Notes: generated by a model from the sequence alone, not told the origin. Positions 2,601 to 22,799 are shown, counted from the first letter of the stretch. The stretch: 35,164 nucleotides of DNA from Armatimonadota bacterium (GCA_026003195.1 BPGU01000007.1:1-35164), one strand, 5' to 3'. Translations and numbers: made by a program.

Positions 2601-2892
2601 AACGACCTCCAGAGAGAGTGTTCATATACGGTATTACAGATGATTCAGAGGAAGAGACAACGAAGAAGAGAGAAGAAGAAAGAAGATGGGCGGGGACGGA
2701 CGTAATGGCTGGCGTGAGAGGATGGGGGGCTTTTCCGTCCCCGCCCGACAATCACCTTATGGTCTTTCAAAGAGAGGGGCTATCGTCACAAATGACGCGC
2801 CCCCTTTTGCATTGGAGGAGAAGCGATGACCTGAGATGAGTGCTATGTCAAGGATGAAGGAAAGGGTGGGGCTTTCGCCCCTCCCCATATCG
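2601..2892. other. Non-coding spacer with two strong hairpins
   Basis: No gene is supported in these 292 bases. A perfect 13-bp stem joins 2688-2700 with 2734-2746 (arm GGGCGGGGACGGA). A second nested hairpin pairs GGGGC 2776-2780 with GCCCC 2799-2803 around an inner CGTCA/TGACG stem and is followed by CTTTT on the plus strand, which looks like a plus-strand terminator. The 2640-2690 stretch is strongly purine-rich. Confidence 0.6.
2861..2886 (-). terminator. Terminator hairpin, GGGGC-tttc-GCCCC family
   Basis: GGGGC (2868-2872) pairs with GCCCC (2877-2881), extended by an outer GGG/CCC after a T-T mismatch. Read on the minus strand the loop is GAAA and CCCTTTCC follows. It sits just past the stop of the 2893-3216 gene and belongs to the family that recurs after most genes up to 9.8 kb. 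Confidence 0.6.
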
Positions 2893-3216: not shown

Positions 3217-3276
3217 TTTCTCCTCCTTATGCTTGGGGAGTGGTTGGCTCCCACTCCCCTTTGATTTGGACTAATC

Positions 3277-3891
3277 TTACGCGTTGTTGGTTTCGCCGGT
3301 CTGTTCTGCGGGCTGCTCGGTGTTCAGCAGTGTCTTGACGTCGATCTCCTGTGCCTGCTCGCCCTGGTTGACCTCAATCGTTATCGGCTGCAGGTTGGTG
3401 AACTGCTCATGCATCTTGAGGTTCAGTGCGGCAACCAGGTCAGGGTCGACGTCATACAGACCGGTTTGCGGATTGGGTGTGACGAATGCACCGTATGCGC
3501 CGACGCTGATGGTGACGACACCGGTGGTCTGCGGCACTCCGGTGACCTTTGCCAGTGCAACGCGCATGCGCACATCGCCCTGTCGGGTTCGGACAGGCCC
3601 GTATCCCAGCAGCACCTGTTTGACGGGCACTGCTTCGCGGCGGCGGATGGGCTGCATGTTGTCGTTCACGCCGTCGGGAGTGGGATAGAACCAGTTCGCT
3701 TCCACCTTTTCGGGCACGCTCAACTCGAACGGAATGCCGGTCATCTCATCGACGATCTGGCATTTGCCGTTCTCGGTCGGTGGCAGGCAATCGCTCAGCG
3801 CCATGAACTTCCAGTGGCTGGTAGCCGGGATTGCCTGTGAGCGGATGATGTGCTGGAAGATGCGGTTCTTGGCGATATCGATCGGGTTCAT
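3277..3891 (-). CDS. Hypothetical protein downstream of the split polymerase-like genes
   Basis: An unrecognised 204-residue soluble protein, mostly predicted beta by residue pattern, with a low-complexity Glu/Gln/Thr/Asn tail (residues 185-204). It starts 10 bases after the stop of the beta-like polymerase gene with AAGGAGGTAAGT directly before the ATG. It is therefore likely translated from the same message as the two polymerase-like genes and may be an accessory subunit, but this is inferred only from position. No motif for nucleotide or DNA binding is visible. Confidence 0.7.
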   Translation of the reverse strand: MNPIDIAKNRIFQHIIRSQAIPATSHWKFMALSDCLPPTENGKCQIVDEMTGIPFELSVPEKVEANWFYPTPDGVNDNMQPIRRREAVPVKQVLLGYGPVRTRQGDVRMRVALAKVTGVPQTTGVVTISVGAYGAFVTPNPQTGLYDVDPDLVAALNLKMHEQFTNLQPITIEVNQGEQAQEIDVKTLLNTEQPAEQTGETNNA

Positions 3892-3901
3892 ACTTACCTC
3901 C

Positions 3902-5155
3902 TTACTCGTAGTATTGGATGAGCACTTTCGCCATATTCCAGTAATCGTTCACTTCGCGCAGGTCAATCATCTCCAGCGGGTCGAACGGCAGACCTGCGCA
4001 GAAGTGTTGTTCCGGTCTTATCGTGAGCGTCTGGTCGTCCCGTGCGAAATACACCTCATTATGTGAGGTGGTTGCCCAGTATTCGGTGACGACCAATCCG
4101 ACGCCTTTCTGCACCAGCAGTCGTTCATCCACTTTCCATCCTGCTGGTGCGGTGCGTCGTTCCAGCTCGAACTCGACGAGGTGCTCCTGAACCTTATCCA
4201 GTGGGATGTTGTTGTTCAGCAGCACCGTCCACGCGGATTTCTTCTGTATCATACGTGGACTGACGATGATGTCTACGGGTTCATCGTTCACGATGACGTC
4301 GTGTTCGAGCAGGAAGGTCATGCCTTGTATGCCGCTTGCTGCCATCAGTTTCAGCGTCATGTTCTCCACCTTATACTCGCCAATCGCTTTCTGTTGCGGT
4401 AGTTGTCCGTATGCCGTCCAGCGGTTGGTGGTGGCGACCGTTTCGTTGCGTTCGCGGTCGCGCACTTTCTTGATGTTGGTGGAGAACGGCATTTCCGCAC
4501 GCATCTTGCTCATACCGGTTGGAGTGACCAGCATGGCGTCATGCACCGGTCCCTCATGCAGATTGGTTTCTGCGATGAGGGTGCGCAGTGGTTTCCAGAT
4601 GCCCCATGCCGGTTCCTCCTTCCGTTCATCCTGCCATGGGATAGCGTTCTTCCATGCGGACCGGAGTTTGCGTCCGGTTCGGTGGGCAGCGAACGCATCC
4701 CAGTTGGGATTGACGGTGCGGAAATGGTCATCGCTGATGCACAGTTTACGGAACGGATGGGAGTTACCGGTGATGTACGGGTTCGCTCCCAGCACGTCCA
4801 TAGCAGCAAGCACGGCGTTGCGTTTGCGCACATAGTAGAAGTCGTCTTGCTGTGCCTGGTCGCGAGGTAGGTCCAGTTCCACTTCGCGGCGGAGTTGCTC
4901 GAGCTGGTTCTGTGTCATGACGATTTCCAGCCCGTTGATGAACTCGCTTTTGTCGTCCGCGCGTGCGAACTGGTCTTGCAGGGTGAGCACATGGAAACGT
5001 TTCACGTATCCGAACTCATCATACTCCGGCAGCAGTTTCACGGGGCACCAGCGTTTCGTGCCCGTTCGGGTTGTAATCAGCCAGCCCGCAGCCGGTAGTT
5101 TGTCGGAGATACTCGGAAACGTCTCCGTGGAAATCACCAGCGAAGTCAGGATCAT
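3902..5155 (-). CDS. RNA polymerase beta-like protein (second half of a split polymerase)
   Basis: A 417-residue protein that I assign to the beta-type double-psi barrel of multisubunit-like RNA polymerases. Around residue 204, VHDAMLV resembles the EDAI(L/V) motif of beta. Residues 269-279 (KLMAASGIQGM) match in spacing the beta motif K-x7-K-G-V: Lys269 aligns with the first catalytic lysine, but the second lysine position is Gln277. Then VDIIVSP (294-300) matches the VDI-(V/L)-NP strand that follows in beta. The same order of motifs occurs in the giant protein at 10472-16618. The start follows GGAGGAGGAG closely and lies inside the 3' end of the beta'-like gene (137-base overlap). Assignment is by motif; loss of the second lysine raises doubt about full activity. 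Confidence 0.6.
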   Translation of the reverse strand: MILTSLVISTETFPSISDKLPAAGWLITTRTGTKRWCPVKLLPEYDEFGYVKRFHVLTLQDQFARADDKSEFINGLEIVMTQNQLEQLRREVELDLPRDQAQQDDFYYVRKRNAVLAAMDVLGANPYITGNSHPFRKLCISDDHFRTVNPNWDAFAAHRTGRKLRSAWKNAIPWQDERKEEPAWGIWKPLRTLIAETNLHEGPVHDAMLVTPTGMSKMRAEMPFSTNIKKVRDRERNETVATTNRWTAYGQLPQQKAIGEYKVENMTLKLMAASGIQGMTFLLEHDVIVNDEPVDIIVSPRMIQKKSAWTVLLNNNIPLDKVQEHLVEFELERRTAPAGWKVDERLLVQKGVGLVVTEYWATTSHNEVYFARDDQTLTIRPEQHFCAGLPFDPLEMIDLREVNDYWNMAKVLIQYYE

Positions 5156-6290
5156 CGTACTCCTCCTCCAGTTTGCCCGACCAGAGCTGTTTGAGCAGCT
5201 CTTCGGGCGGAGTTTCGATGTGGCGGATGATGCTGCGCGGTCGTGCTCGGCGCATGAGTACGGTGAACACGCCGCCTTCGGGCATCATCCATGCCATTGC
5301 TTCCGCGCTCTTCATCACCTCCTTCCCATACGGCAGGTTGAGGATAGATTCGTCGGGCGTGGCGGTTCCGCGGATGCATTCGATGGCATGACGCACGTCG
5401 AAGGTGGATTCCGCTTTGAGTTTACGGGCGTCCATGACGTGTTCAATCAATGCCGTGGCGAAATCCCACACCTCGCAGGCAGCCTTTTGCGGGTCTCCAG
5501 TCCTTGCAGCATGGGCATACTGGAGTACCCATATCGCCTGAATCACCTGACCGATGTATCGGGTTGCGGTGAATCCCCAATACAGGTCATCGAATTCGGC
5601 GTTCGGCTGGATTTCCGGCGTCACGTCCCACTCTGCGAAATGTATCTTGCGGGCGATGGTGACGCGCGGTGCGGGTTTCTCGCCTGAGATATAGCCGGCG
5701 AATCCCTCATCGCCATCCGAATCGCCTTGCAGGTCTTCCACTAAGGTGTTCGGATGGACGAGGATTGCCCTGTGCGGATAGTTAGTCACTCTCCGGGTCG
5801 GGCGGATCCTGCATGAGGAACTGCTGGCTTGCGGAAACCGCTGGAACACGGTCAAGCGGGTGGGCTTCCCGAAGGTAATCCAGATTTCGCCTTCCGGCAC
5901 TTCCGGATGACCTACCAGTTTCGCCCAAGCGCACGGCAGTTCATACTGCGCTGTGCGGAGCAGTGCTCGACCGTATTCGCCCTGATTGCGCCCCACTCCG
6001 ATTACCTGTCTTGCCAGTTCTTGAAGGAGTCCCCGATAGGGTTCCCCTTTCGCTTTGGCGATGGTAATCTGGTGGAGCGTGGTGAAGGGCGGTCGCAGCT
6101 GCACGACGGGCAGTTTGGACCGGTTCAGCTGGATATAGTCTACGGGCAGGTTCGGCTTTGGGATGGGGATGAGGTCGCCATAGACTTCCAGCTGTGCTGG
6201 TTCGCCGGTGACCATTTCGTGGAGGATGGTTCCGCGATCCGGTACGGCGAGGTTTGGTGCCACCGTGTGAAGCACCTTCTGAACGATCAT
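5019..6290 (-). CDS. RNA polymerase beta'-like protein with DSDGD (first half of a split polymerase)
   Basis: A 423-residue protein. Residues 151-194 carry the beta'-type barrel signature: Arg-Phe-Pro at 151-153 (compare Arg-x-Pro in beta'), AILVHP at 175-180, and the metal-binding motif GDSDGD at 189-194. Asp190, Asp192 and Asp194 would bind the catalytic magnesium. The Arg-to-Asp spacing (39) is close to that in the giant protein (37). A later helix, YIGQVIQ...HVMDARK (245-290), also has a counterpart in the giant protein (IGQVARI...VIMDAGK). The ATG at 6290 follows AGGAGGTGG. The gene is first in a unit with the beta-like gene. Related small polymerases are known in phages such as Thermus P23-45 and crAss-like phages; exact family unknown. 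Confidence 0.65.
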   Translation of the reverse strand: MIVQKVLHTVAPNLAVPDRGTILHEMVTGEPAQLEVYGDLIPIPKPNLPVDYIQLNRSKLPVVQLRPPFTTLHQITIAKAKGEPYRGLLQELARQVIGVGRNQGEYGRALLRTAQYELPCAWAKLVGHPEVPEGEIWITFGKPTRLTVFQRFPQASSSSCRIRPTRRVTNYPHRAILVHPNTLVEDLQGDSDGDEGFAGYISGEKPAPRVTIARKIHFAEWDVTPEIQPNAEFDDLYWGFTATRYIGQVIQAIWVLQYAHAARTGDPQKAACEVWDFATALIEHVMDARKLKAESTFDVRHAIECIRGTATPDESILNLPYGKEVMKSAEAMAWMMPEGGVFTVLMRRARPRSIIRHIETPPEELLKQLWSGKLEEEYDDPDFAGDFHGDVSEYLRQTTGCGLADYNPNGHETLVPRETAAGV

Positions 6291-6299
6291 GTTCCACCT

Positions 6300-6598
6300 C
6301 CTGAACGAGGTTTTGCAGAGCGAGACTATCTAAGCGCCAGATAGCCGAAAGAGGATTATCTAAAGCGACCATTCCTTGAAGAGGAGAGGAGACATATCAT
6401 CAGAGAGGAGAAGATCAAAGCGAGAAGAAGCGAAGCGAGGAGAAGATGTTCGGTGTACTCGGGTGTGTTATGTGAGGTGTGTTGCTAAAAGGATAGGTTA
6501 TCGGAGTGCTATGTGAAGGGTGTTGCTAAAAGGGTGGGCTGTCTGCCCGTCGGTGGCTACGGTGCAAGGGTGGGGGCTGTTCCGCCCCCTTTCCCTTG
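6300..6598 (-). promoter_or_regulatory. Leader region of the beta'-like gene, with repeated motifs
   Basis: No gene is seen in this roughly 300-base gap. Two TATCTA motifs (near 6319 and 6355; TAGATA on the minus strand) recur here as in other leaders, and CTATCT/AGATAG form a short inverted repeat. Further out, a 25-base direct repeat (GTTATGTGAGGTGTGTTGCTAAAAGG and a variant) lies near 6467 and 6510, beside a purine-rich tract at 6375-6445. The gap ends in the terminator of the next gene. Promoter position cannot be fixed by eye. Confidence 0.4.
6566..6596 (-). terminator. Terminator hairpin after the 6599-7042 gene
   Basis: GGGGGC (6572-6577) pairs with GCCCCC (6584-6589), extended by AAGGG/CCCTT, directly past the stop codon on the minus strand. 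Same family as the hairpins after the neighbouring genes. Confidence 0.6.
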
Positions 6599-7042
6599 TT
6601 AGTCGGCGAATTCGTCCACAGGGATCGCTTTCGGTTCCTGTTTCGTGGTTGCATCGGTGCTAATCAGTTCTTGCGCGTTCGGTTCGTTGAAAGCCCCCAC
6701 AATCCAGCTGGGTTCGACAACTCGGCTTCCGTCGTTCAGCAATGCCGGTCTCCAGCCGTTGAGTGTGGGAGTGAGGTATGAGACGACATTTCCATGCACC
6801 AGTGCCACGGATTTCCTTCGTCCCATCGTCGACACGATTTCGGCGATGATGACGGTCGTCTCTTCCGGTTTCGCGGTCACTTGCTGGGTTTGTCCGTCTT
6901 CCACGCCTCTCAAGGTCAGTGCTTCCACTTCGTATCCTACCAGGTTCAGCAGTTTGGAGAGTGGGAATGCCTTTGCGATGCGCAGTACCTTTGCCCTGCC
7001 CCTCTTTTCCGTCTTGGCGATGAATACTTCCTTTGCGTTCAT
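6599..7042 (-). CDS. Hypothetical protein
   Basis: An unrecognised 147-residue protein. The start is set at the ATG at 7042, eight bases after AAGGAGGAG; an upstream extension of the frame lacks a ribosome binding site and would run through the terminator of the next gene. The sequence is basic at the N-terminus (EKRGRAKVLRIAK), then alternates strand-like segments (ETTVIIAEIV, SVALVHGNVV) and ends in an acidic tail. There are no cysteines and no membrane segment. It is an isolated cassette with its own leader and terminator. Function unknown. Confidence 0.7.
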   Translation of the reverse strand: MNAKEVFIAKTEKRGRAKVLRIAKAFPLSKLLNLVGYEVEALTLRGVEDGQTQQVTAKPEETTVIIAEIVSTMGRRKSVALVHGNVVSYLTPTLNGWRPALLNDGSRVVEPSWIVGAFNEPNAQELISTDATTKQEPKAIPVDEFAD

Positions 7043-7076
7043 GTTTCTCCTCCTTATCATGTAAAGGTTGATTCCA

Positions 7077-7104
7077 AAGAGGGGCTGTCTATTCCAGCCC
7101 CTTT
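7077..7104 (-). terminator. Terminator hairpin after the 7113-7319 gene
   Basis: GGGGCTG (7081-7087) pairs with CAGCCCC (7095-7101), with flanking AAAG/CTTT. It follows the stop codon of the minus-strand gene. Its first arm is part of the 29-nt direct repeat. Confidence 0.55.
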
Positions 7105-7112
7105 CCGGTGCG

Positions 7113-7319
7113 TTAGTTTTCCTTCGTGAGTTCCTCCCACCGCACCTGGTCTGCAATGTGCATCAGCGGGTACAGTGCGGGGAATGCGATCACGAGGGAC
7201 ACGGTGAACATGATGGCGATGAGGGTTCGTGTTAGTTGCGATGCTTCCCTCCCTGCTCGCCGCAGGAATGTCCACAGGTCTTTCAACAGTCCCACGAAGT
7301 CCTCCTTTGCTTCCTTCAT
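7113..7319 (-). CDS. Small single-pass membrane protein
   Basis: A 68-residue protein: a charged amphipathic N-terminal half (residues 1-33) and one hydrophobic segment of about 22 residues (TLIAIMFTVSLVIAFPALYPLM). The start is the second of two adjacent ATGs (7319; alternative 7322), spaced five bases from GGAGGA. The neighbouring cassettes code for soluble orphans and another membrane-anchored protein. It could be an inner-membrane or lysis accessory protein, but there is no family signature. Confidence 0.65.
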   Translation of the reverse strand: MKEAKEDFVGLLKDLWTFLRRAGREASQLTRTLIAIMFTVSLVIAFPALYPLMHIADQVRWEELTKEN

Positions 7320-7351
7320 CATTCTCCTCCATGTAAAGGTTGATTCCAAAG

Positions 7352-7373
7352 AGGGGCTTTCTTATCAGCCCCT
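7352..7373 (-). terminator. Terminator hairpin after the 7382-7570 gene
   Basis: GGGGCT (7353-7358) pairs with AGCCCC (7367-7372) just after the minus-strand stop codon; its first arm belongs to the second copy of the 29-nt repeat. Confidence 0.5.
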
Positions 7374-7381
7374 TCTTTGCA

Positions 7382-7570
7382 CTACAGGCTCTGGTGCAGT
7401 CTTCCGTCCTTTCCCATGTAGAGCCCGTAGTTATGGAGGAACTCCTTCAGTGCCTGGCGTTCGTCCTTGTATTCAGCCTTCGCAATCCATTGCTCTGTAC
7501 GCCAGTCTTCCAGAAGTCCCATCGCTCGGAGTTCACGTTCAATCTGTTTCAACGTGACATGGTGTTTCAT
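7382..7570 (-). CDS. Hypothetical 62-residue protein
   Basis: A small charged protein, probably all-helical, with a basic start (MKHHVTLKQIERELRAMG) and aromatic residues near the end. No family recognised. Its ATG overlaps the stop of the upstream gene in an ATGA junction, so the two are translationally coupled; a GGAGGAG lies within the 3' end of the upstream gene, about 12 bases away. The helix pattern would suit a small regulatory or DNA-binding protein, but no helix-turn-helix is clear. Confidence 0.6.
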   Translation of the reverse strand: MKHHVTLKQIERELRAMGLLEDWRTEQWIAKAEYKDERQALKEFLHNYGLYMGKDGRLHQSL

Positions 7571-7770
7571 GACTGAATCTTCTCCTCCATTTCCCTGATG
7601 AGTTGCATGAGGTTCTCTTGGGTCCGCTTGATGGTGTCGCTGTCGATGCTGGAGCTGATGGAGAACTTCTCGATGCGCAGGGTGAACTTGTTCCCGTCAA
7701 CGTCCAGCTGCACTCCCTCAATGTTGAGGGAGGCGTTGTTGAAAGTTGGGATGAAATCGTAGTCTTCCAT
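7567..7770 (-). CDS. Hypothetical 67-residue protein coupled to the next gene
   Basis: An unrecognised acidic protein. Residues 1-35 look like beta strands (VQLDVDGNKFTLRIEKFSI) and residues 43-67 form a charged helix. It starts at an ATG eight bases after AAGGAGGAG, and its stop overlaps the start of the next gene (ATGA). Its leader carries two copies of the TAGATA hairpin described below. Function unknown. Confidence 0.65.
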   Translation of the reverse strand: MEDYDFIPTFNNASLNIEGVQLDVDGNKFTLRIEKFSISSSIDSDTIKRTQENLMQLIREMEEKIQS

Positions 7771-7794
7771 CGTTTCTCCTCCTTAAGAGAATTC

Positions 7795-7860
7795 CAGAGT
7801 GTGGCTATCTAAGCCACTGTTCCAGAACAGGGTTATCTAAGTCCCGGTTCCGAAATCTGA
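7795..7860 (-). promoter_or_regulatory. Leader with two TAGATA stem-loops
   Basis: GTGGCT (7801-7806) pairs with AGCCAC (7812-7817) around the loop ATCTA. A second copy has GGG 7830-7832 and CCC 7843-7845 around TTATCTAAGT. On the minus strand the loops read TAGATA. CTGGAA follows each, and then the ribosome binding site. Related leaders lie before the genes at 8633 and 9683. Confidence 0.5.
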
Positions 7861-7948
7861 CTTTCTACTTTCCTTGTTTCCTTTTCAAGGCGGTGGCTGG
7901 GGGCGGGTGGGCGGGGACAAGGTGAGGGTTCTGTCAAGGTTCCTTCGA

Positions 7949-7972
7949 AAGGGAGGGGCTATTCGCCCCTTC
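7949..7972 (-). terminator. Terminator hairpin after the 7976-8266 gene
   Basis: GGGGC (7955-7959) pairs with GCCCC (7965-7969), flanked by AAGGGA/TCCT. The segment before it (GAGGGTTCTGTCAAGGTTCC, TTCGAAA) recurs before other hairpins of the family. Confidence 0.6.
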
Positions 7973-7975
7973 CTC

Positions 7976-8266
7976 CTACAGCCACAGTTTCACGTCCACC
8001 CGGAGGATGCCGTTCTCTATCTTGACGGTGGCATTCTCATGGGTTACGGTTTTCCAGTCGTCGGCTGTGACCATAGCGGTCCAGCCTTCTTCCTTCTTGT
8101 GGATGAAGACGGTCTTTCCGCTATCGGTCTCAATCAGGATTCCGATATGGTTCAGGTCGGAATCGCTGATATGACCGATTCGTCCAGCCACCTCACCGCC
8201 GAAGGCGGCTAATGGCTGGAACTCTTCCTGCTTCATCCACACCGGGTACTTGATATGTGCTCTCAT
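7976..8266 (-). CDS. Hypothetical beta-rich protein
   Basis: An unrecognised 96-residue soluble protein whose residue pattern is mostly beta strand (HIGILIETDSGKTVFIHKK, NATVKIENGILRVDVKLWL). The start at 8266 is chosen because AAGGAGG lies eight bases upstream; the frame extends upstream without a binding site. It has its own leader and terminator. No motif points to a function. Confidence 0.65.
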   Translation of the reverse strand: MRAHIKYPVWMKQEEFQPLAAFGGEVAGRIGHISDSDLNHIGILIETDSGKTVFIHKKEEGWTAMVTADDWKTVTHENATVKIENGILRVDVKLWL

Positions 8267-8321
8267 CCTGCTACCTCCTTCCGGAGTATGGCTTTCTATG
8301 GTTATGTGAGGGTTCATCGAA

Positions 8322-8344
8322 AAGGGTGGGGCTTTCGCCCCATC
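8322..8344 (-). terminator. Terminator hairpin after the 8355-8633 gene
   Basis: GGGGC (8328-8332) pairs with GCCCC (8337-8341) with a TTTC loop (GAAA on the minus strand), followed on the minus strand by ACCCTTTTC. One of the best examples of the family. Confidence 0.65.
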
Positions 8345-8354
8345 GGCTTCGACG

Positions 8355-8633
8355 TTAGCTTGGGTCGAATATCACAACGTCGAAGCCAACCACGCGCATC
8401 TTGATTGGCGCTACGATGCGCAAGGTGCGTGTGGCGTCGTCGCGGAAATCGGCGATCGCTACGGGATCGCCGTCGACGACAAGATGGACAAGCTTCCCGC
8501 CGTTGCGATAGTAGATCGCAACGTCGGGCGATGGTCGGTGCACGGGGTCGTTCCCGTAAGCACCGGGGTACATGAACACGGTTTCGCCAAGATCTATCTG
8601 TGGTGGTGCTGGGTAAAGGTACTTGTTGTTCAT
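8355..8633 (-). CDS. Hypothetical beta-rich protein
   Basis: An unrecognised 92-residue protein. Strand-like segments dominate (KLVHLVVDGDPVAIADF, TRTLRIVAPIKMRVVGFDVVIF) and the N-terminus is rich in Tyr and Pro. I choose the ATG at 8633 (eight bases from AAGGAG) over the in-frame ATG at 8639, which is too close to the binding site. It sits in an isolated cassette with a TAGATA leader and a terminator. Confidence 0.65.
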   Translation of the reverse strand: MNNKYLYPAPPQIDLGETVFMYPGAYGNDPVHRPSPDVAIYYRNGGKLVHLVVDGDPVAIADFRDDATRTLRIVAPIKMRVVGFDVVIFDPS

Positions 8634-8640
8634 TCTCATC

Positions 8641-8690
8641 TCTCCTTGTATAGTATTCCAGAGCCGGGTTATCTAAGACCCGTACTTCTG
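8641..8690 (-). promoter_or_regulatory. Leader with a TAGATA stem-loop
   Basis: CGGGT (8665-8669) pairs with ACCCG (8678-8682) around the loop TATCTAAG. On the minus strand this is followed by CTCTGGAATACTATAC and the ribosome binding site. The CTGGAATACTATACAAGGAG part is identical in the leader of the gene at 9683. Confidence 0.5.
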
Positions 8691-8751
8691 TGGTGGAGGT
8701 GTCTTTGGCAGGTGTGGGCAAAAGCGAGGGTTGTGTCAAGGTTCCCTCGAA

Positions 8752-8777
8752 AAGGGTGGGGCTTTCACAGCCCCAAG
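8752..8777 (-). terminator. Terminator hairpin after the 8786-9157 gene
   Basis: GGGGCT (8758-8763) pairs with AGCCCC (8769-8774), with ACCCTTTTC following on the minus strand. Confidence 0.6.
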
Positions 8778-8785
8778 GGTGTTAC

Positions 8786-9157
8786 TCATGGTTTGGTAGC
8801 TTGTTTTGCATCTTGCAGTTCGTCGTTGATATATCTGCATGAATTCTCCATTTCCTGGAGATTCACATCCGTTCGACTCAGGTGTTGCAGAGCTGCGATG
8901 AGCTTCTTTTCATCTCGCGAGACAATCGCCTCTTGTATGAGGACGATTGCCTCGTTTGTTTGTTTCCTGGCATCCACTACGTTGATCTTAATGTCATTCA
9001 TGTAAGCTTCTGTGCGCTGTACATGGTACCTTACAGGCCTTAGTCGGTCGTTCACTTCCTTTTGGGTTACAAGAACGAACGCGACAAACAGCGCGAGGGC
9101 CGTTCCTAAGAACAGCCCTATTACCCCGAGCCGATCCCAGTCAATCCCGATAGTCAT
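8786..9157 (-). CDS. Membrane-anchored coiled-coil protein
   Basis: A 123-residue protein with one N-terminal membrane segment (about residues 9-31, GVIGLFLGTALALFVAFVLVT) and a long charged helix (32-123) with heptad-like spacing, probably a coiled coil exposed in the cytoplasm or outside. The start has AAGGAGGAG six bases upstream. Similar plans occur in spanin-like, superinfection-exclusion and membrane-scaffold proteins, but no specific match is visible. There is no lipobox, which argues against an outer-membrane spanin subunit. Confidence 0.65.
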   Translation of the reverse strand: MTIGIDWDRLGVIGLFLGTALALFVAFVLVTQKEVNDRLRPVRYHVQRTEAYMNDIKINVVDARKQTNEAIVLIQEAIVSRDEKKLIAALQHLSRTDVNLQEMENSCRYINDELQDAKQATKP

Positions 9158-9289
9158 TCTTACTCCTCCTTGTAGTAGTTTTCCATAGCACGGCTATCTA
9201 TACTCTAACTCCAATGTACAGGTTTCCTGCTATCCTTCATATTCCTTTGGGCGGATACAAAAGTGAGGGCTGTGTCAAGTTCCTTCGAA

Positions 9290-9313
9290 AAGGAAGGGGC
9301 TTTCGCCCCTCTC
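9290..9313 (-). terminator. Terminator hairpin after the 9324-9683 gene
   Basis: GGGGC (9296-9300) pairs with GCCCC (9305-9309) around TTTC, flanked by AAGGAA and CTCTC; the minus strand reads TTCCTTTTC after the stem. Confidence 0.6.
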
Positions 9314-9323
9314 TCTCTCCTGC

Positions 9324-9683
9324 CTACAGTGTGTAGACAGGAGAGAAGTTGTCGACGATGATGTGCTCGTCGTCGACGTATGAGATGGTGCAGGAGGTCG
9401 CCATCGCCAAAATGCGGGCGACTTCTTTGAGTTGTGTTTCGTCGGCGGATTCAATCCACCGTGCCGCCGCATTCAGGACTTCCGGGTCCCTCCGGAAGTC
9501 CCAAGTTTCGACGGCTGCTGGGTGGTTGATGCGGTAGTGGGTGTTCTTGTCTTCTCCTACTGTTTCCACAATCTCTATATCGTGTCCTAGTGCTCGTGCT
9601 ATCCTGACTACCCAGTATCCTGGCGTGGCACCCGCCAGGATTAGGGTCTGCAGAACCTCGACTGGTTTTCCTTCCAGTCTCAT
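9324..9683 (-). CDS. Hypothetical protein
   Basis: An unrecognised 119-residue soluble protein of mixed helix and strand. Residues 1-40 could form a small helix-turn-helix-like unit (VEVLQTLILAGATPGYWVVRIARALGHDIEIVE), which would suit DNA binding, but the match is weak. The start has AAGGAGG eleven bases upstream. It has its own TAGATA leader and terminator. Function unknown. Confidence 0.65.
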   Translation of the reverse strand: MRLEGKPVEVLQTLILAGATPGYWVVRIARALGHDIEIVETVGEDKNTHYRINHPAAVETWDFRRDPEVLNAAARWIESADETQLKEVARILAMATSCTISYVDDEHIIVDNFSPVYTL

Positions 9684-9695
9684 TTCTTGTTTCCT

Positions 9696-9735
9696 CCTTG
9701 TATAGTATTCCAGAGCCTGGTTATCTACAACCCTC
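9696..9735 (-). promoter_or_regulatory. Leader with a TAGATA stem-loop
   Basis: GGTT (9719-9722) can pair with AACC (9729-9732) around ATCTAC. The adjoining CTCTGGAATACTATAC is identical to that before the gene at 8633. The stem is only four base pairs. Confidence 0.4.
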
Positions 9736-9783
9736 TCTTCATTCCTTCATCGAAGAAAAGAGAGGGTTATGTCAAGGTTCGTT

Positions 9784-10471: not shown

Positions 10472-13400
10472 TCAGAAGAAGCGGTCTATCGGTATCACCC
10501 GCTCCGACCGGCGCTGGCCAAGGAAGCGTCCGAGGGCTTGCAGAGACTCTACCTCGGACACCAGCTGCTTGACCTCGCCACCGCGGATGCGGAAGACCTC
10601 GACCGCTTCCGCCTCCAGCTTCGCCTTCGCCTCATCACCAGCAGCGACGGCAGCATCCCGCTTGTACATCGCAGCCTGGCGGAGGAGCATCTGAGAGCCG
10701 AAGTTGTCCTCACGCCCAATCGTCGCACTGGTATGCGGTAGCGCGATGGCGTGGAGCTTCAGCACCATCGCAGTGCCGATAGCCTTCCGCTTGTCGCCCT
10801 CTACCGCATATAGAGGCACGACGTTATAGTCAACGCCCGGATGCTCAGCCTTGATGCGCTCGGCGAGCTGCTGAGCATACCGGGCGGCTATCTCCATCTC
10901 AGCCTTCTGGCACTCCGGATTGTCGCCAACCTCATAGTTCGCGCGAGAGGCGAGTATCTCCGCCTCAAACGCTTCGATGAGGTCGGTATAACCGAACAGC
11001 TGCGCCAGACCGTAGAACACCACCGTGCCCGTCTTCTTCTCCACTACTGCAGTAGCGGGCGCGATGATGTCTACGGTGTGCTCCTTATCGCCCATGACCG
11101 CCACGATCTTCTGGTCATGCAGCACGCTCGCTACACCCTTGATCGTGCCTTCGGTGAACATCAGCTTGAAGGCATCGGGCGTAGCGTCGGCACCAACCTT
11201 CACCGAGGCGCGGACGATGGTATACATATCAGCCACGCTCTCGAAGCTGAAGTTGATGCCGAACTCGCTGAGCTTCTCCCAGTCGTTCTCGCAGGCGAGA
11301 ATCGCTTTCTCGTCTATAGCGAGCTTGCCGCCGCCATAGACGATATACTGAGCCTTCAGGCCGCACGTCTTGATAGCAGCCAGAATCTGCTCAGCATAGG
11401 ACTTCTCGCCCTGGCTGAGTACGATCTGGACGCTCCGCGTGACCGGAATCGTGAACGGACGAGTGGCCACCATGCCCTCTACGGACGTGTAGGCGTGACC
11501 GGTATCCGGAGCGAGCGGGATCGGATTCCCTTTCTCATCCTTCTCAACCGGAGCCACCAGCCAGTCCGCATTCGCGAAGGCCACGGTGACCTCCATCGGC
11601 AGATGCTCCTTGCCGTTTACGATGAACGGCAGACCAACCAGCGGCAGCTGCTCGCGGACGCTGCGGCGGAAGTTGGTCGCCACTACGCGGATGCCCATAT
11701 CCTCCAGCTCGGCCCGATCTGCAGGATCGAACCACAGGATGCGAGAGGCATCCTTCTTGAGTGGCAGATAGATGCGCTTCCGCCCGTCACGGCGAATCAG
11801 CTGGTTGATCAGCTCGCCCATCGCCACATAACCTATCTCCTTGCGGCGAGGCAGCACTGCCATGACGCTCTTCTTGCGCTTGCCGTCATCAAGCCGCACG
11901 AGTACCTCTTTCGGACGGCGAATCAGCCCCAGAAGCACATCATCTACATACAGCATGTGCTTCAGGAACTTCACCGCGTCCTTGGACTCCGCATCGTTCT
12001 TCGTGTCGAACATCGCGCTCAACCGCTGATTGACGACACGCTGAACGATCGGAATCAGCGTGGCATTGATGGAACCGGCAAAGCGCTTGCCATCAATCTC
12101 CTCGACCTTCACGAGCGAGGAGCTCATCACGGCTTGTATCATCTCGTCTATCAGGACGACAAACGGATCCTGATAGACGATACCGAATTCTACCTTAACG
12201 GTCTTATCGCTTTCGGTCTCGATCTCTTGATGAATCTTACCGAAAGCGAACCGACCTCCGAGGATGCGGTCGCGCCCGTCATGGCTTATTCGGACGGCGG
12301 TGACAACATCGCCGATCTTGGAGACGATGCTCACCGGACCTACCTCGACGATCGGGCGATACATGGTCTCATAGTATGCACCGGTCTCGCCCGTATCGTA
12401 GGTCTTGGCGTAGTTCACCATGACGGGGGCCAGCAATACCACGAACGTCTGCTTCACCTCCACCCCATTGACCTTGCATACACGGCTGCGGATTACCGGG
12501 ATGATATACGGCAACCGCCCGCCACTCCTGTACGCTTCGGTCAGGATGGAGTTCATCGTGGTCACGTCGCTGACCCAGACCTCCTCCTCCTTTCCGTTGA
12601 CGACTCGCTTCTGCGTCACCCGGTACGGCGCCATGAACCGAGTGTTCTTGGCATACCGGGTGGTCGTATATGCGTCTACGAAGAATGGCCGGCTACCGGG
12701 TTCGACGATAGACGGCACGAAGCAGTCCACCTGCTCGCCTCGACCGTTGAAGACCTTTGCATGTGTGCTCGGCTTCGTCGCGATGAACTCCAGGCAGGTG
12801 GCCTTCGGATAGTCGAACTGCCGAGCCGCACGGCCCACATTCCATGCTACGAAGCGCACGGGCAGGCTCTTCTCCAGCTCGGCGTTCACATGTTTCTCTA
12901 TCTCATCAGCGCTCATCACACTGCCAGCCGGAACACGTGGCAGGTTGGCGCTGCCGCTCGTGTTCATCACCGAGACGGTGGAGGACTTACCTTCCAGCCA
13001 GAGCTCGAAGGTCTCCGGAGTCGGCAGGTATCCGTTCAGATACGCTGCCTCTAACGCCTCCGCGCCGTCGTAGATGTTGTCATCTTTCTGGCTAGCGCCA
13101 GGCAGCCCCGCTACCTCTTCCATCATCATCGCTGCCTCGCGAACCTTGTCGGAGAACTCATTATTCTCGCCGAAGAAGTCATCCAGATACTCGGCGAGTT
13201 CGGCCAGAGCCAGCGCATACTCGGCGGGCGTGCGCAGGCTCATCATGGAGACCAGATGGTCTACGAACGGCAGACCAAAGTCCATCTGCTTGACCTTGCT
13301 GGTCTCCTTTCCGGCGTCCATGATAACCTCGAGCAACGGCAACATTGCATCGCCGAACTTGACAGCAACCTCAGGACCGGCAATGCGTGCTACCTGACCG

Positions 13401-16400
13401 ATCATGGACACCACGTCGACGTGCAGCGCACCCACACCGCTGCGTGCGTCGGCACCGATCAACGCGAGGATACCCTCGAACATCGAGGTCGGAAGCACCT
13501 TGGTGCCGACACTCTCCAGCATCAGACGCAGATCATGCACCAGCTTGGACTTGTCACCGATCTTGTTCTCGGTGATCCGCGCATAGCGCAGATCCACGTC
13601 CTTCCGGCTCATGGCCTCCTTGACCTTTGTGAGCAGCATGCACAGGAAGTACAGGTCGCCGTCGAAGTCGCCGTAGAACTCCTTGGCAACATCCGGCGGC
13701 AAATGCAGTGCATTGCTACCCATAACGCCTACTATATGAACGCGCCGATATGCGTTGGTAATCTCGGTCACCGGGTTGCGGAACAGGAACGCGCCCAGTC
13801 CGCCGCTGTTGACAGCAGCAATCAGGCGCTTGATGTCCGCAAGCGTTACCTTCTTCATACCGGCCCCGCTCAGGATCTGGCGCAGAAGCTTCACACCCAC
13901 GCCAACATACACGACGCCGTACTTCTTCTGCCAGCGATTCTCCGCTTTCTGGCGTGCGGCGTTCGGTATGGCGGGGCTTACCGTGCCCAACGCGCCGACA
14001 CCGGAGCGCATGCGCCCGCGACGCAGCCACGGACGGCTAGAGCCGATAACCTTCTTCGCCTCATCCTCGGCGACGTTAGCCGCCTCGGATACGGACCGCG
14101 CCTCGCGATAGCCTTCCATCTCAGCACGCTTCTTGTTGATGGCGCTGAGCAGGCCCAGCACCAAGCCCTCCGCCGAGTCGGGCTGCACGGATACGATGAG
14201 CGTGCCGTTCTCCAGCTCCGCATCGATACGGGCGAGCCGCCCGTCTATGCGGAATGTATACTCGCTGTGGCTAGGCACAACCACATCGAACACCTTGCGA
14301 GCCTTGACCAACTCGGCAATGCGGCCCGTGAGCACGAACCAGTTACCGGCTGTGATGACGCCGGTGTCGGCGGGGTCTACGCGCAACATGTTATCTACCT
14401 CCACGCCTGCAGAATCCTGAGCAGGCTCGTCATCGTCATCATCCACCGACTCTTCAACATCAGCATCGTCGACAACGATCTCGACGGTGTCGTCCAGCTC
14501 CACGTCGTCCACCCAGTCCACGTCACCCGCCTCGCTATCCTCGGCGAGCTTGGCAGGATCGATGGACTTCATCTGCTCGCGCAATGCGGACAGTGCCGCC
14601 GTAACATCTTCCTCGTTGTCCGCGCTGTCCACCACAATCTCATCCTTGTCTACCATCTCGTTCTTCACCTCCGACGCCTCCTCATCCTGAGCGTCATGGG
14701 AGACTCGCTCTACGCTGGTCTTTTCCTCGACGTTGGAGGAGGCGGCTGATTCTTCAACAACTACAGGCTCCTCACGCACTTCTTCGTCCACTTCTATATC
14801 AACCAGATCGGAGCCGTTCACATACGTATCACCCACCAGCACCTTGCACTTGATGCCCAGGTAGACTGCCATGCGAATCATCATCGCAGTACCACCGGTG
14901 GGCTGGCCGTTCTCCATCTTCGGGAAGGCTACCACGACGCTGCCTTCCGGCAAGTCGACGAGCATGGCGTAGTTGCGGATGTGCAACTTCCATGCCGCGT
15001 CCGTGAGCCGCTCCGGTGCAGGATGCAGCTTCTGCACCAGTTCGCGCCCACGCTCCGCCACTTCCGGCGAGACGTATACCTTCTTGCCAGGCAACGCCTC
15101 TCCGGAGTGACCACGCCAAGGCAGTACCAGAATGGCATTGTGGCCAAGCGCATGTGCAGTCTTTGCCACAATGGCATCAATGCCTTCCGCACCGCCGGTC
15201 ATGATCTGGAAACCGCGCCTGATGCCGGCCTCCACCGCCTTCTTGCAGAGGTTGATCTGCGTGACGGACGGTGTACGGGTGCCGACGATGATGGAAATCG
15301 GCTTCCGTACGGTGCTGGTGTTCATCTTTAACTCCTCCCGAATATCCATCAACAACTTGCCCAGCATGTTCTGTCCGCCATGCTGGCACCACCACTTCGC
15401 GCAACCGGTGCACACGCCCCAGAACGTGTCACCCCAGTCGTTCTCCTCCACGATCTGGGCGTCGCCGGTTGCGAGAAGCGCATCGCGCAGCTCCGGCACG
15501 CTGAACTTCTGGCGCAGAAGCTCACGCATGACTTCCACTTTCACCTTGTTCCAACCCGACTCATCGAAGCGAATGCCGCGCTGGTCGAGGTTGTACTGCT
15601 TCAACGCCGCCTTCGCCTGTGCAGGAGTGCACTGCTTCAGCAGCTTGCGCAGCTCCTCGACGGCGGCTTCCAGCCCGTGCTGATGGACGCTGCGCAGGTA
15701 GTCCAACTTCGCCGCCTGGTACGCGTTCTCAACGGAAGGATACTCCACACCCTTCCATGTCACGCGCACCGGATGGAAGTTGGAGAACACCGTACCAACG
15801 GTGTTCACCTTTGCAGCCTTCTTGTCGACACGAGGCTCCTTCACAACTTCCTCCATCTTGCTTACCGCATACCATTTCCCGGCCGGCAGGTTGGCTTTGA
15901 GCACGGCAGACACCTGCGACCATTGCAGGCGGCCCAGCCCGCAACCTACGCGCGGCATGACCGCAGCACGAACAGGCATGGAAAGCGCAGCCTTGCGGAT
16001 AAGGTCAATGTCGGCGTTCTCCTTCCAGTGATACTTAGTCGGGAACAGCACGACGTTGAACCGCTCCACAAAGACGCTCCGCCCGTCCTTCAGCACCTGG
16101 AGATAGTTGCGATACTCATCATCCAGACCGGGATAACGGTCAGCCGCCTGCTTGGCGACGCCTGCGCCCATCGTACCGGCGCAGTTCACCGGCACAACGA
16201 CGGGCAGGCCAAGCTCGGCTGCGACCTGCCACACGTCGCCAACACGCTCCGTGAACATAACCTTCTCCTCCTCCTGTACGACTTCGGCCTGGTCCTCAGG
16301 CACTACTTCGTACAGTCGTCCCCCACTCTTCGCACGGGCAAGCAGAGACTCGATCTCTGCGTGCGCCTCGTCGGCGAAATGGAGTTCTGCCCCATAGTAA

Positions 16401-16618
16401 TGCGCCCCCTCAAAGTAGGCGCGGGCGCTAGTGGGCAGAACGATCCGGTCCACACGCAGACCGTCCTGCTTGAGGAACTCCACGAGGGTCTTAATCTCCT
16501 CGCGGTAGGTCCTCTTCTCATCGCTCGCCATGCCCGCACGACGAGCGATGACCTTCTGCCCTTTTACAAGCACCGCGGCGAACGCGCGATGCTCGACTAC
16601 GAAGAACAGGGTGTTCAT
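10472..16618 (-). CDS. Giant fusion: macro, NADAR, SLOG-like and RNA-polymerase-like domains
   Basis: A 2048-residue protein, numbered from the ATG at 16618 (GTG at 16621 also possible; GAGGAGG precedes both). Residues 1-110: small domain shared with the gene at 18418. 123-255: macro domain of DarG/TARG1 type, with PVNCAGTMGAGVAKQ, FPTKYHW (Lys195 at the catalytic lysine position) and PRVGCGLGRLQW. 274-431: NADAR domain (FSNFHP, YPSVENAYQAAK, LLATGDAQIVEEN, FWGVC, LGKLLMDIREEL). 439-600: SLOG/DprA-like Rossmann unit (VGTRTP, TGGAEGIDAIVAK, PTGGTAMMIRMA). 605-745: acidic linker. 945-990: beta'-type barrel with FRNP and GDFDGD (Asp984, 986, 988). 1818-1870: beta-type motifs Lys1818, Lys1827-Gly-Val and VDIIAP; LKLHAIA near 1953 resembles the beta C-terminal clamp. 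Its start overlaps the previous stop (TGATG). Confidence 0.8.
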   Translation of the reverse strand: MNTLFFVVEHRAFAAVLVKGQKVIARRAGMASDEKRTYREEIKTLVEFLKQDGLRVDRIVLPTSARAYFEGAHYYGAELHFADEAHAEIESLLARAKSGGRLYEVVPEDQAEVVQEEEKVMFTERVGDVWQVAAELGLPVVVPVNCAGTMGAGVAKQAADRYPGLDDEYRNYLQVLKDGRSVFVERFNVVLFPTKYHWKENADIDLIRKAALSMPVRAAVMPRVGCGLGRLQWSQVSAVLKANLPAGKWYAVSKMEEVVKEPRVDKKAAKVNTVGTVFSNFHPVRVTWKGVEYPSVENAYQAAKLDYLRSVHQHGLEAAVEELRKLLKQCTPAQAKAALKQYNLDQRGIRFDESGWNKVKVEVMRELLRQKFSVPELRDALLATGDAQIVEENDWGDTFWGVCTGCAKWWCQHGGQNMLGKLLMDIREELKMNTSTVRKPISIIVGTRTPSVTQINLCKKAVEAGIRRGFQIMTGGAEGIDAIVAKTAHALGHNAILVLPWRGHSGEALPGKKVYVSPEVAERGRELVQKLHPAPERLTDAAWKLHIRNYAMLVDLPEGSVVVAFPKMENGQPTGGTAMMIRMAVYLGIKCKVLVGDTYVNGSDLVDIEVDEEVREEPVVVEESAASSNVEEKTSVERVSHDAQDEEASEVKNEMVDKDEIVVDSADNEEDVTAALSALREQMKSIDPAKLAEDSEAGDVDWVDDVELDDTVEIVVDDADVEESVDDDDDEPAQDSAGVEVDNMLRVDPADTGVITAGNWFVLTGRIAELVKARKVFDVVVPSHSEYTFRIDGRLARIDAELENGTLIVSVQPDSAEGLVLGLLSAINKKRAEMEGYREARSVSEAANVAEDEAKKVIGSSRPWLRRGRMRSGVGALGTVSPAIPNAARQKAENRWQKKYGVVYVGVGVKLLRQILSGAGMKKVTLADIKRLIAAVNSGGLGAFLFRNPVTEITNAYRRVHIVGVMGSNALHLPPDVAKEFYGDFDGDLYFLCMLLTKVKEAMSRKDVDLRYARITENKIGDKSKLVHDLRLMLESVGTKVLPTSMFEGILALIGADARSGVGALHVDVVSMIGQVARIAGPEVAVKFGDAMLPLLEVIMDAGKETSKVKQMDFGLPFVDHLVSMMSLRTPAEYALALAELAEYLDDFFGENNEFSDKVREAAMMMEEVAGLPGASQKDDNIYDGAEALEAAYLNGYLPTPETFELWLEGKSSTVSVMNTSGSANLPRVPAGSVMSADEIEKHVNAELEKSLPVRFVAWNVGRAARQFDYPKATCLEFIATKPSTHAKVFNGRGEQVDCFVPSIVEPGSRPFFVDAYTTTRYAKNTRFMAPYRVTQKRVVNGKEEEVWVSDVTTMNSILTEAYRSGGRLPYIIPVIRSRVCKVNGVEVKQTFVVLLAPVMVNYAKTYDTGETGAYYETMYRPIVEVGPVSIVSKIGDVVTAVRISHDGRDRILGGRFAFGKIHQEIETESDKTVKVEFGIVYQDPFVVLIDEMIQAVMSSSLVKVEEIDGKRFAGSINATLIPIVQRVVNQRLSAMFDTKNDAESKDAVKFLKHMLYVDDVLLGLIRRPKEVLVRLDDGKRKKSVMAVLPRRKEIGYVAMGELINQLIRRDGRKRIYLPLKKDASRILWFDPADRAELEDMGIRVVATNFRRSVREQLPLVGLPFIVNGKEHLPMEVTVAFANADWLVAPVEKDEKGNPIPLAPDTGHAYTSVEGMVATRPFTIPVTRSVQIVLSQGEKSYAEQILAAIKTCGLKAQYIVYGGGKLAIDEKAILACENDWEKLSEFGINFSFESVADMYTIVRASVKVGADATPDAFKLMFTEGTIKGVASVLHDQKIVAVMGDKEHTVDIIAPATAVVEKKTGTVVFYGLAQLFGYTDLIEAFEAEILASRANYEVGDNPECQKAEMEIAARYAQQLAERIKAEHPGVDYNVVPLYAVEGDKRKAIGTAMVLKLHAIALPHTSATIGREDNFGSQMLLRQAAMYKRDAAVAAGDEAKAKLEAEAVEVFRIRGGEVKQLVSEVESLQALGRFLGQRRSERVIPIDRFF

Positions 16619-18258
16619 CACATTACCTCCTCATAAGTAACGGCGCCGGGTGCCGCTACAAACGCGACAACAGCGCCGTTCACTTCGGATGCCTGTCGGA
16701 TGAGAGCCAGTACGTCATCAGCGTACTGCTCTGGCGTGAACGGCATCCTCACGTTCACGCCAACAACAACATAAGGCAGGTCGCCATAGTGGCGGCGGAA
16801 CTTCTCGATGTCCTTCTGGATCTTCGAGACAGCCTCGCCTACCTCGACCTGCCCGTTGACCAGCCGCTTCATGGCGCTGGTCTTCGTGGGCGTAGTTGCA
16901 GCCAACCAGTTCATCGTGGTCAGCTGCAGGCAGACGCCAACGCCATCCACGATGACGAAGGCGTCTACACCTGCCTTGCGGTCGTCCTTCTGGCTGCGGT
17001 GCACTTCCACACCGCGAGCCTCAAGCGCCACAAGCAGGCGCTGCTCCGCGTCGCGCCCACCATCCGACGCGGAACCGACGACGGCTTCAAAGCCAGCCGC
17101 CGCGTCGAATGCGAACGCGAGGCGGCTGACCAGATCGTGCAGGCCGAAGCCGTCAATCGCCTGCACGATAGCCGCTGCGTCGGTCTCGTGACCGCGCAGC
17201 GACTCAAGGACGCGAACCGCGACTTCCCTGTCGCGAACCGCACCCCACCGCAGCGCCTCTACCAGCGCTGCGTGCAACTGCGGCAGCATCGGGGCTGCCG
17301 CCTTGGCCTTGAGAACCGCTGCCTTCTTGCGGCGCAGCGCCTCCTTGATGCCGCGCCGCACGGCAGCCCGTTTCCGCGCCGCTTCCTTCTCCGCGGCGCG
17401 GATCTTCTTCAGAGCCTGCTTCCTGGCAAGCTCTTCCTTGGCGGCCTCAACAGCCGCCTTCTTCTCGCCGCGCTTGTGCAGGCGCGGCTCTTTCTGCTCC
17501 TTCGAGGGAGCCGGCTCAGCCTGCTTCACGACAGGCTTAACAACAGCGACCGGGACAACAACGCGCCGGCTGTGCCGCAAGGCCATCTCCCCCTCTGCCT
17601 TGCGGTACTCCGCATACTCAGCGCGGCTCATCAGATAGCCGCGCTTCCGCAAGGCCCGGAGCAGGGCCTTGGCATGCCGGACAGTGCGCCGAACGGACCT
17701 CTTGATTCGATCGGCGACCTTCTCCGGCAGACGGCGCGCCCGGCTCTTCGCAAACTCCGTCGCGGGAGTTGCTATATCGTGAAGCGCCATGTGCCCGGTC
17801 TTCACATGGCGCTCATAGAACCGCTCCACGGCGTCGCGACCGTGGAGCATTACCATCAAATGAGCCCAGGCACCGAGGAGGCTCGCAACCTCCTCCAGCC
17901 CGGGCTCTTCAATCGACTCGAAGAGGCTAATCGCCTCCTCGAGCCGACGGATAGCGCTGGCGAGCCTGCCGGCCCCCAGGCCCGCCAGCATTCGAACTTG
18001 CCGGTCGAAGCGGACAGCGCGATCCGCCTCGCCGGCAGCTTCGAGGAGGGTGACGATGGCAGCGAGGGACTCGTCACCCTCAAGAACCTCCGCCCCTTCT
18101 ACATGTGGCGGAAGTTCATCGGCTCCTGGTAATCGGAGCCAGATGGCATCCGGCCCATCGCGGAGCCAGAGCAGCATCTCCTGCCCTGACTCCATCGTCG
18201 CTGGCTTGCTCGGCCTGGGCCGGACGTGGCCGAGCAGCTCGGCGACAGTAACTTTCAT
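16618..18258 (-). CDS. Hypothetical protein with a basic coiled coil and a nuclease-like C-terminus
   Basis: A 546-residue protein coupled to the giant gene (TGATG overlap) and therefore a likely partner of it. The N-terminal 250 residues are helical. A Lys/Arg/Ala-rich segment (about residues 255-335) looks like a basic coiled coil that could bind nucleic acid. Near the C-terminus (about 405-510) a pattern Glu...GVEVHRS...GVDAFVIVDGVGVCLQLTT resembles the core of restriction-endonuclease-like folds, with Asp then Gln-x-Thr where active enzymes have Glu-x-Lys; it is probably inactive. I place the start at the ATG at 18258 because GGAGGG lies six bases upstream; the longer frame has no binding site. 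Family not recognised. Confidence 0.7.
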   Translation of the reverse strand: MKVTVAELLGHVRPRPSKPATMESGQEMLLWLRDGPDAIWLRLPGADELPPHVEGAEVLEGDESLAAIVTLLEAAGEADRAVRFDRQVRMLAGLGAGRLASAIRRLEEAISLFESIEEPGLEEVASLLGAWAHLMVMLHGRDAVERFYERHVKTGHMALHDIATPATEFAKSRARRLPEKVADRIKRSVRRTVRHAKALLRALRKRGYLMSRAEYAEYRKAEGEMALRHSRRVVVPVAVVKPVVKQAEPAPSKEQKEPRLHKRGEKKAAVEAAKEELARKQALKKIRAAEKEAARKRAAVRRGIKEALRRKKAAVLKAKAAAPMLPQLHAALVEALRWGAVRDREVAVRVLESLRGHETDAAAIVQAIDGFGLHDLVSRLAFAFDAAAGFEAVVGSASDGGRDAEQRLLVALEARGVEVHRSQKDDRKAGVDAFVIVDGVGVCLQLTTMNWLAATTPTKTSAMKRLVNGQVEVGEAVSKIQKDIEKFRRHYGDLPYVVVGVNVRMPFTPEQYADDVLALIRQASEVNGAVVAFVAAPGAVTYEEVM

Positions 18259-18363
18259 CGTTCCCTCCTCTAATTCCCCACTCAGCCGCAACCTTTTCAG
18301 GCTGCGTTGCCCGGCACCGCCACGTGGAGGCGGGGGTTTCGGTGCCGTCATCAATTCCAGCAC

Positions 18364-18400
18364 GGGATGGGGAGCCAGCATCGGCTGCTTGACCCATCCC
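18364..18400 (-). terminator. Hairpin after the 18418-18777 gene
   Basis: GGGATGGG (18364-18371) pairs with CCCATCCC (18393-18400), with an inner AGCC/GGCT. It follows the stop on the minus strand. There is no T tract, so it may be part of the general hairpin richness of this block. Confidence 0.4.
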
Positions 18401-22175: not shown

Positions 22176-22799
22176 ATGGAGGAACTGTTCAATCGGACTT
22201 GGGTGGATATCGAGCCGTACGCCAGATGGTTGATACGCTACCGATTCTTCGTGCTGGAAACGGAAGAAGAGGATGCGATACAAGTAGCAAGAATCGCCCT
22301 TTTCATGGCAATGAAGAACCACAATCCCGCTATAGCAAGCCTGGAGACCTACTTCGCGGCGATACTCAAGAAGTTGCTGATGAAATGGGTACTTCTGTAC
22401 AGACCGGCATTGTCTATCCCGTACAATGCCGTCTATGCGACTACCCATCCAGGACATTGCTATATGAACTTGGACTTCCCCTCTGTCGAAGAGTTGCTGG
22501 AGATAGAGGAGGAAGTACACGAAGCCGGACAGTGGGATATCCGAAACCTAAAGCAGTTCAGTCAGGCGATCGCTACCAGTAACATACCATCCGCTGAGGT
22601 GATGGACTTGAAGGACTGCTTGAAGCAGATAGGAGAACCCGACCGCACTTTGCTTTTCATGAAGTACGGACTGAACGGCTACGCCGAAATGACCAACAAG
22701 GAAATCAGCGAAGTTACCGGTATGTCAATACGTCAGATCCAATGGCGGCTGAGCCGTATACTGTGCCAGCTGAAACAGATGTTATCCAAAGGGGCATAG
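22176..22799 (+). CDS. Sigma70-family-like transcription factor
   Basis: A 207-residue protein with the two parts of a small sigma factor. Residues about 28-75 (EEEDAIQVARIALFMAMKNHNPAIASLETYFAAILKK) match region 2. Residues about 145-205 form region 4: LKQIGEPDRTLLFMKYGLNGY then a helix-turn-helix, NKEISEVTGMSIRQIQWRLSRILCQLKQML, which would contact the -35 element. The linker region 80-145 is unusual. It lies in the operon behind the host-type promoter and could redirect host polymerase to later phage promoters. Some phage proteins of this kind act as general late regulators. Confidence 0.8.
   Translation: MEELFNRTWVDIEPYARWLIRYRFFVLETEEEDAIQVARIALFMAMKNHNPAIASLETYFAAILKKLLMKWVLLYRPALSIPYNAVYATTHPGHCYMNLDFPSVEELLEIEEEVHEAGQWDIRNLKQFSQAIATSNIPSAEVMDLKDCLKQIGEPDRTLLFMKYGLNGYAEMTNKEISEVTGMSIRQIQWRLSRILCQLKQMLSKGA

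Follow-up and report, generated by a model that had tools for sequence, protein, structure and literature searches.

What kind of protein is encoded where a single reading frame seems to join ADP-ribose-related domains to an RNA polymerase (RNAP)? We addressed this question for a giant gene on a contig from an Armatimonadota bacterium (GCA_026003195.1, BPGU01000007.1:1-35164), whose full 35,164 nucleotides are called the window here. ADP-ribose is a tag used in defence by some bacteria. With moderate confidence, and from sequence comparison, we favor the reading that the gene encodes a permuted two-barrel RNAP of a jumbo phage tethered to an ADP-ribose-processing module, possibly directed against DarTG-type defence. 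In outline, the C-terminal ~1300 residues would form a very divergent two-barrel (double-psi beta-barrel, DPBB) RNAP, in which a metal-binding barrel A (GDFDGD) would precede a lysine barrel B (K-x8-K). This polymerase would be covalently joined to DarG-like macro, NADAR, and SLOG domains, which together would form a module for hydrolysing or binding ADP-ribose.

The frame lies on the minus strand at 10472–16621, stop codon included, and encodes 2049 residues from a GTG at 16621 or 2048 from an ATG at 16618; a Shine–Dalgarno (SD) sequence, AGGAGGT, precedes its start. A preliminary description of this DNA had placed a 2048-residue frame at 10472–16618, which agrees with the frame counted from the ATG. 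Residues are numbered here from the GTG, one higher than in that description (D985/D987/D989 and K1819/K1828 for the residues discussed below). All segments of the protein are given on the minus strand. Residues 2–120 (16262–16618) matched no Pfam family and are followed by a macro domain (residues 122–254; 15860–16258), which matched PHROG 335 over residues 121–292 (E = 9e-23) and, by profile, PDB entries 5m3i (E = 9e-13), 7omu, and 5m31. It carries the DarG motif FPTKxHW, with K196 as the catalytic Lys, and is of the DarG/TARG1 type. Next comes a NADAR domain (PF08719, residues 277–432; 15326–15793; E = 8e-24, 85.2 bits against a cut-off of 35.1) with catalytic or binding positions E298, K305, E393, D398, and W401, the first three of which correspond to Glu/Lys/Glu positions required or conserved in NADARs (PMC11543638). 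The third is a SLOG/DprA-like domain (PF02481, residues 440–592; 14846–15304; E = 1.4e-8, 34.6 bits against a cut-off of 29.6), which also matched PHROG 768 (E = 4e-19). An Asp/Glu-rich linker of 144 residues (601–744; 14390–14821) leads to the polymerase-like region (residues 745–2049; 10475–14389). The linker contains no stop codon and has a coding-type GC content by codon position, which makes an artefactual frame unlikely. The three domains that had been proposed, and their order ahead of the polymerase-like region, were upheld by these hidden Markov model (HMM) matches and by the map as a whole.

Is the C-terminal region a polymerase? Its DPBB-A (beta'-type) block, R948-N-P ... G-D985-F-D987-G-D989, lies at 13655–13780, and its DPBB-B (beta-type) block, K1819-x8-K1828-G-V ... 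VDIIAP, at 11012–11179 (both minus strand). We compared them with a sister protein of 1670 residues encoded at 71741–76753 of C5, a 202-kb phage contig of the same assembly that shares with the window a homologous terminase, a portal protein, and many neighbouring genes. The polymerase-like parts of the two giant proteins are ~25% identical across their full length, and both contain R-x-P-(37-43)-D-x-D-G-D and K-x8-K...VD, with K1072 and K1081 of the C5 protein equivalent to K1819 and K1828.

Each phage also encodes what appears to be a compact, split version of the same enzyme. In the window, the first gene of the pair (423 residues; 5019–6290, minus strand) is DPBB-A-like (RFP ... QGDSDGD) and has a 31% identical homologue in C5, and the second (417 residues; 3902–5155, minus strand) is DPBB-B-like (KLMAASGIQGM ... 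VDIIVSP). The C5 pair lies at 67778–68938 and 66567–67763; across the two phages, the first gene reads RxP...QGDSDGD and the second KLxxxxGxK/QGM...VD. The second Lys of split gene 2 is Gln in the window copy and Lys in C5. The profile of split gene 1 aligned to the A part of the giant with a score of 31.9 (shuffled maximum: 24.1), and split gene 2 aligned to its B part with a score of 43.5 (shuffled maximum: 25.3); in neither case did any of 40 column shuffles score as well. Both alignments, the former to the N-terminal and the latter to the C-terminal part of the polymerase region, are in register with the motifs. Within E. coli rpoB (1342 residues), split gene 2 matches best, though weakly, at 1089–1108, inside the beta barrel beside K1073. 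In the collections searched, relatives of the split pair occurred in the two phages only.

The spacing of the motifs is also that of known enzymes. The distance from RxP to DxDGD is 37 residues in the window giant and 43, 39, and 36 in the C5 giant and the split genes, compared with 38 in gp64 of Thermus phage P23-45, 43 in YonO, and 35 in E. coli rpoC. All three Asp of DxDGD are retained. When a bridge helix and a trigger loop were sought, a conserved segment, E..(M/F)DA(R/G)K, was observed in all four phage proteins, 100–120 residues past DxDGD. A combined A-part profile found its best match at the DFDGD site in P23-45 gp96 and at the DYDGD site in gp64, unequalled by any of 60 shuffles, with a thin margin for gp96 (24.8 vs. 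24.3 for the best shuffle). Both motif blocks reported in the preliminary description are therefore present beyond chance, being kept in a 25%-identical sister protein and in a split gene pair, and their assignment to beta'-type and beta-type barrels is supported by the sister conservation, the spacing, and the profile comparison. On these grounds, we consider the two-barrel assignment likely. That the region is a working RNAP is a further step, to which we give a fairly good chance.

Several results weigh against this reading. The ~1300 residues of the polymerase-like region (745–2049) matched no family in Pfam or PHROG HMM searches, and, taken singly, none of the HMM, PDB-sequence, or profile comparisons tied them significantly to an annotated RNAP; rpoB/rpoC profiles built from 31 genomes found nothing significant in the region. 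The A and B profiles were at chance level against crAss phi14:2, YonO, and rpoC/rpoB. Single-sequence AlphaFold modelling gave a mean predicted local distance difference test score of 37.6 for residues 850–2049 and 46.1 for residues 880–1005, and was uninformative on the barrels and on the closeness of the Asp and Lys residues. The lineage is known from two proteins only, both in one assembly; the giant protein does not follow the B-then-A order of the known single-chain two-barrel enzymes that were checked; and the host assembly itself contains no DarT. The polymerase interpretation that had been put forward for this frame is upheld in part, in its domain order and motif assignment. A search of PDB sequences with the polymerase profile likewise returned a chance match only.

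The lack of a significant match to known RNAP families, and of a fold, would be expected if DxDGD and K-x8-K were coincidental in an unrelated fold and the protein were no polymerase at all. Against this stand the joint conservation of the two motifs with canonical spacing in a 25%-identical protein and in a gene pair of both phages, and split-pair alignment scores that shuffles did not reach; we regard coincidence as quite improbable. Hardly more probable is a two-barrel polymerase other than a DNA-dependent RNAP, such as a PolD-like DNA polymerase, an RNA-dependent polymerase, or an inactive relic. The motifs are common to all two-barrel polymerases, PolD included (PMC4996933), and one split copy has Gln for the second Lys, but R-x-P precedes DxDGD in all four proteins, the three Asp are intact, and the sister phage does not lack a DNA polymerase, since C5 encodes one of family A.

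If the C-terminal region is a two-barrel RNAP, the order of its barrels is unexpected. A (~985) lies ahead of B (~1819) in the giant protein, as does the A gene ahead of the B gene in the split pair. Conversely, the connector runs from DPBB-B to DPBB-A in P23-45 gp64, phi14:2, and QDE-1 (PMC10770324), and the B-like barrel is also first in PolD (PMC4996933). Provided that the B assignment holds, A before B means a permuted architecture, of which we found no report in the literature searched. The reversed order makes membership in the known single-chain families less likely; it does not do so for membership in the two-barrel superfamily.

We then considered whether the fusion to the ADP-ribose module is meaningful. 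In the C5 protein, which lacks NADAR, macro and SLOG domains are placed after the polymerase part, at the C-terminus; the macro domains of the two proteins are 65% identical. Because macro and SLOG are joined to opposite ends of the polymerase in two phages, chance read-through is unlikely, and the recurrence of these domains on a polymerase in another order probably makes the link a meaningful one. Neighbouring genes might nevertheless have run together and be translated mostly separately from internal starts, in which case the fusion would mean little beyond co-expression. Indeed, the ATGs at M122 (macro), M433 (SLOG), and M745 (polymerase) have SD matches of 5–6 bases, so that SD sites and ATGs stand exactly at three domain starts of the window protein, as they do at the macro start of the C5 protein. 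In the latter, two ATGs alone have such sites: M17, which is probably where translation really begins, and M1357, where the macro domain begins. In the window giant, SD matches of at least 5 bases preceded 6 of the 59 in-frame ATGs, compared with 3 of the 69 out of frame. Moreover, in Moorella phage MTATph1, distantly related by its terminase, the macro ("phosphatase") and DprA-like proteins are encoded by separate genes. On the other side, no domain boundary interrupts the open frame, and the linkers are acidic, protein-like, and of coding-type GC content; the placement of macro and SLOG at opposite polymerase ends favors selection for linkage; and Glu codons (GAG GAG) can imitate SD sites. 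We consider it rather unlikely that the fusion means so little. The internal sites suggest that a free module and a free polymerase may be produced alongside the full-length protein; the domains of the giant may thus also be made separately, or may formerly have been separate genes. The preliminary description, which was right about the frame, the domains, and the motifs, had overlooked these internal starts, as well as the strand, the sister protein, the split pair, and the A-to-B order.

What would the module do? Under the reading that we favor, it would protect the phage template, the transcripts, or the polymerase protein during transcription from carrying ADP-ribose attached by host defences (for example, DarTG); alternatively, it would neutralise ADP-ribose signals while the phage transcribes. 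We infer both that the protein folds and works as an RNAP and that its module removes ADP-ribose. A different possibility, to which we give tentative credence, is that the module targets small ADP-ribose immune signals (Thoeris-like) and not DNA or RNA, the polymerase being a mere carrier. This was proposed for phage macro/NADAR/SLOG fusions by Iyer et al. 2022 (PMC9503650); variants of cyclic ADP-ribose are ligands of SLOG domains. The macro domain is, however, of the DNA-deADP-ribosylating DarG type, with its FPTKxHW motif, NADARs take ADP-ribose off guanine in nucleic acid (PMC11543638), and a nucleic-acid polymerase would be a natural carrier for either. DarT was found in two of the nine same-genus genomes searched, adjoined by a DarG macro gene in one. 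As the host genus carries DarTG, the idea of a role related to this system is directly testable. A stronger proposal, namely a new A-then-B class of two-barrel RNAP present twice per phage (giant and split), with the giant clearing ADP-ribose from template or transcript while transcribing, by means of DNA/RNA ADP-ribosyl hydrolases of its own, seems doubtful at present.

We compared the putative enzyme with known systems. Single-chain two-barrel RNAPs, two per phage, are known from Thermus phage P23-45 (gp96 and gp64; PMC10770324), and gp96 shares FRNPV...DFDGD with the window giant. Unlike in P23-45, where B precedes A and the virion enzyme gp96 is fused to the tape measure protein (gp64 being the non-virion enzyme), A precedes B here and the fusion is to macro, NADAR, and SLOG. 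DxDGD and conserved lysines are likewise shared with the YonO-like RNAPs, the crAss-like phi14:2 RNAP, and QDE-1, as would be the predicted presence of two DPBBs on a single chain, but phi14:2 and QDE-1 run from B to A (PMC10770324), and profile similarity to the YonO-like and phi14:2 enzymes was not significant. The phiKZ-type jumbo phages (PMC7824862) have two RNAPs, with barrels on separate polypeptides as predicted for the 3902–6290 pair; in our case, two small genes (423 and 417 residues) make up the putative split enzyme, whereas one giant chain forms the other copy. In addition, the window has a phage sigma-like gene (22176–22799), whereas group 1 phages have none according to PMC7824862. 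The same three ADP-ribose domains occur on one polypeptide in macro/NADAR/SLOG fusions of large phages (Iyer et al. 2022, PMC9503650), although the passages searched in that survey mention none that is fused to an RNAP. Finally, a DarG-like macro domain with FPTKxHW is shared with DarG antitoxins and phage anti-DarTG factors; a phage antitoxin mimic against DarTG and anti-DarTG macro proteins have been reported (PMC11481870), but the macro domain here, a predicted hydrolase, is part of a putative polymerase protein. What sets this predicted phage two-barrel RNAP apart is its tethered ADP-ribose module and its A-to-B order.

Relatives of the polymerase region beyond C5 were found neither by tblastn among the 50,697 phage records of INPHARED, where there were no matches, nor in IMG/VR scans or 291 genomes of the phylum. 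One weak match to the region (E = 7e-4) was rejected as chance, the frame around it being that of an apparent NAD-dependent DNA ligase. Scans of IMG/VR and GTDB seeded with the macro domain yielded no polymerase fusion, a terminase-seeded IMG/VR scan yielded three short contigs, none with the polymerase, and no DxDGD polymerase was found in Moorella phage MTATph1.

Within a 29-contig, 4.58-Mb assembly, the window corresponds to contig C7, and its genes for a terminase, a portal protein, a primase-like protein, the sigma-like factor, and a peptide deformylase identify it as a phage fragment. Judging from a prepilin-type gene, the host probably belongs to the Armatimonadota. The terminase is similar to those of MTATph1 and Bacillus phage KLEB27-3. 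Positions 1–8290 are identical to C3:1–8290 (reverse), the left end of a chromosomal contig on which bacterial genes come next, and position 1 lies inside a tRNA-Val gene (C3:8264–8334); the tRNA gene at the left end and the sharing with the chromosome suggest a prophage integration site. Directly upstream of the giant gene, a gene for 587 residues (16618–18381, minus strand) overlaps the giant start with its stop by 4 bases. It has a homologue at the equivalent place in C5 (76750–77748; 30% identity over 174 residues, E = 1.6e-7), where the overlap with the giant gene is again four bases (76750–76753), and is thus a conserved partner, which could be an accessory subunit of the polymerase. On the minus strand at 7780–9770, a sequence repeated ahead of small genes consists of a GGGGC-AAAGCCCC hairpin with CTTGACA, followed by TAGATAACC...CTCTGGAATACTATAC upstream of an SD site; it is a possible promoter/terminator set of the phage and was not seen in C5. 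The sister contig has Cas3, Cas5, and Cas7-type (DevR) genes (C5:185150–192254) with a CRISPR array of ~20 repeats of 30 bases (C5:187962–189470), whose spacers gave no matches to the window or to the rest of C5. It also encodes a Ro60/TROVE RNA-binding protein (C5:62520–64148) and an intein-containing, B12-dependent ribonucleotide reductase (C5:171136–173937).

If the favored reading is correct, a single enzyme would both transcribe and undo ADP-ribosylation, a type of defence chemistry that is drawing increasing interest. The catalytic barrels would then be able to work in either order, which would bear on the origin of RNA polymerases.

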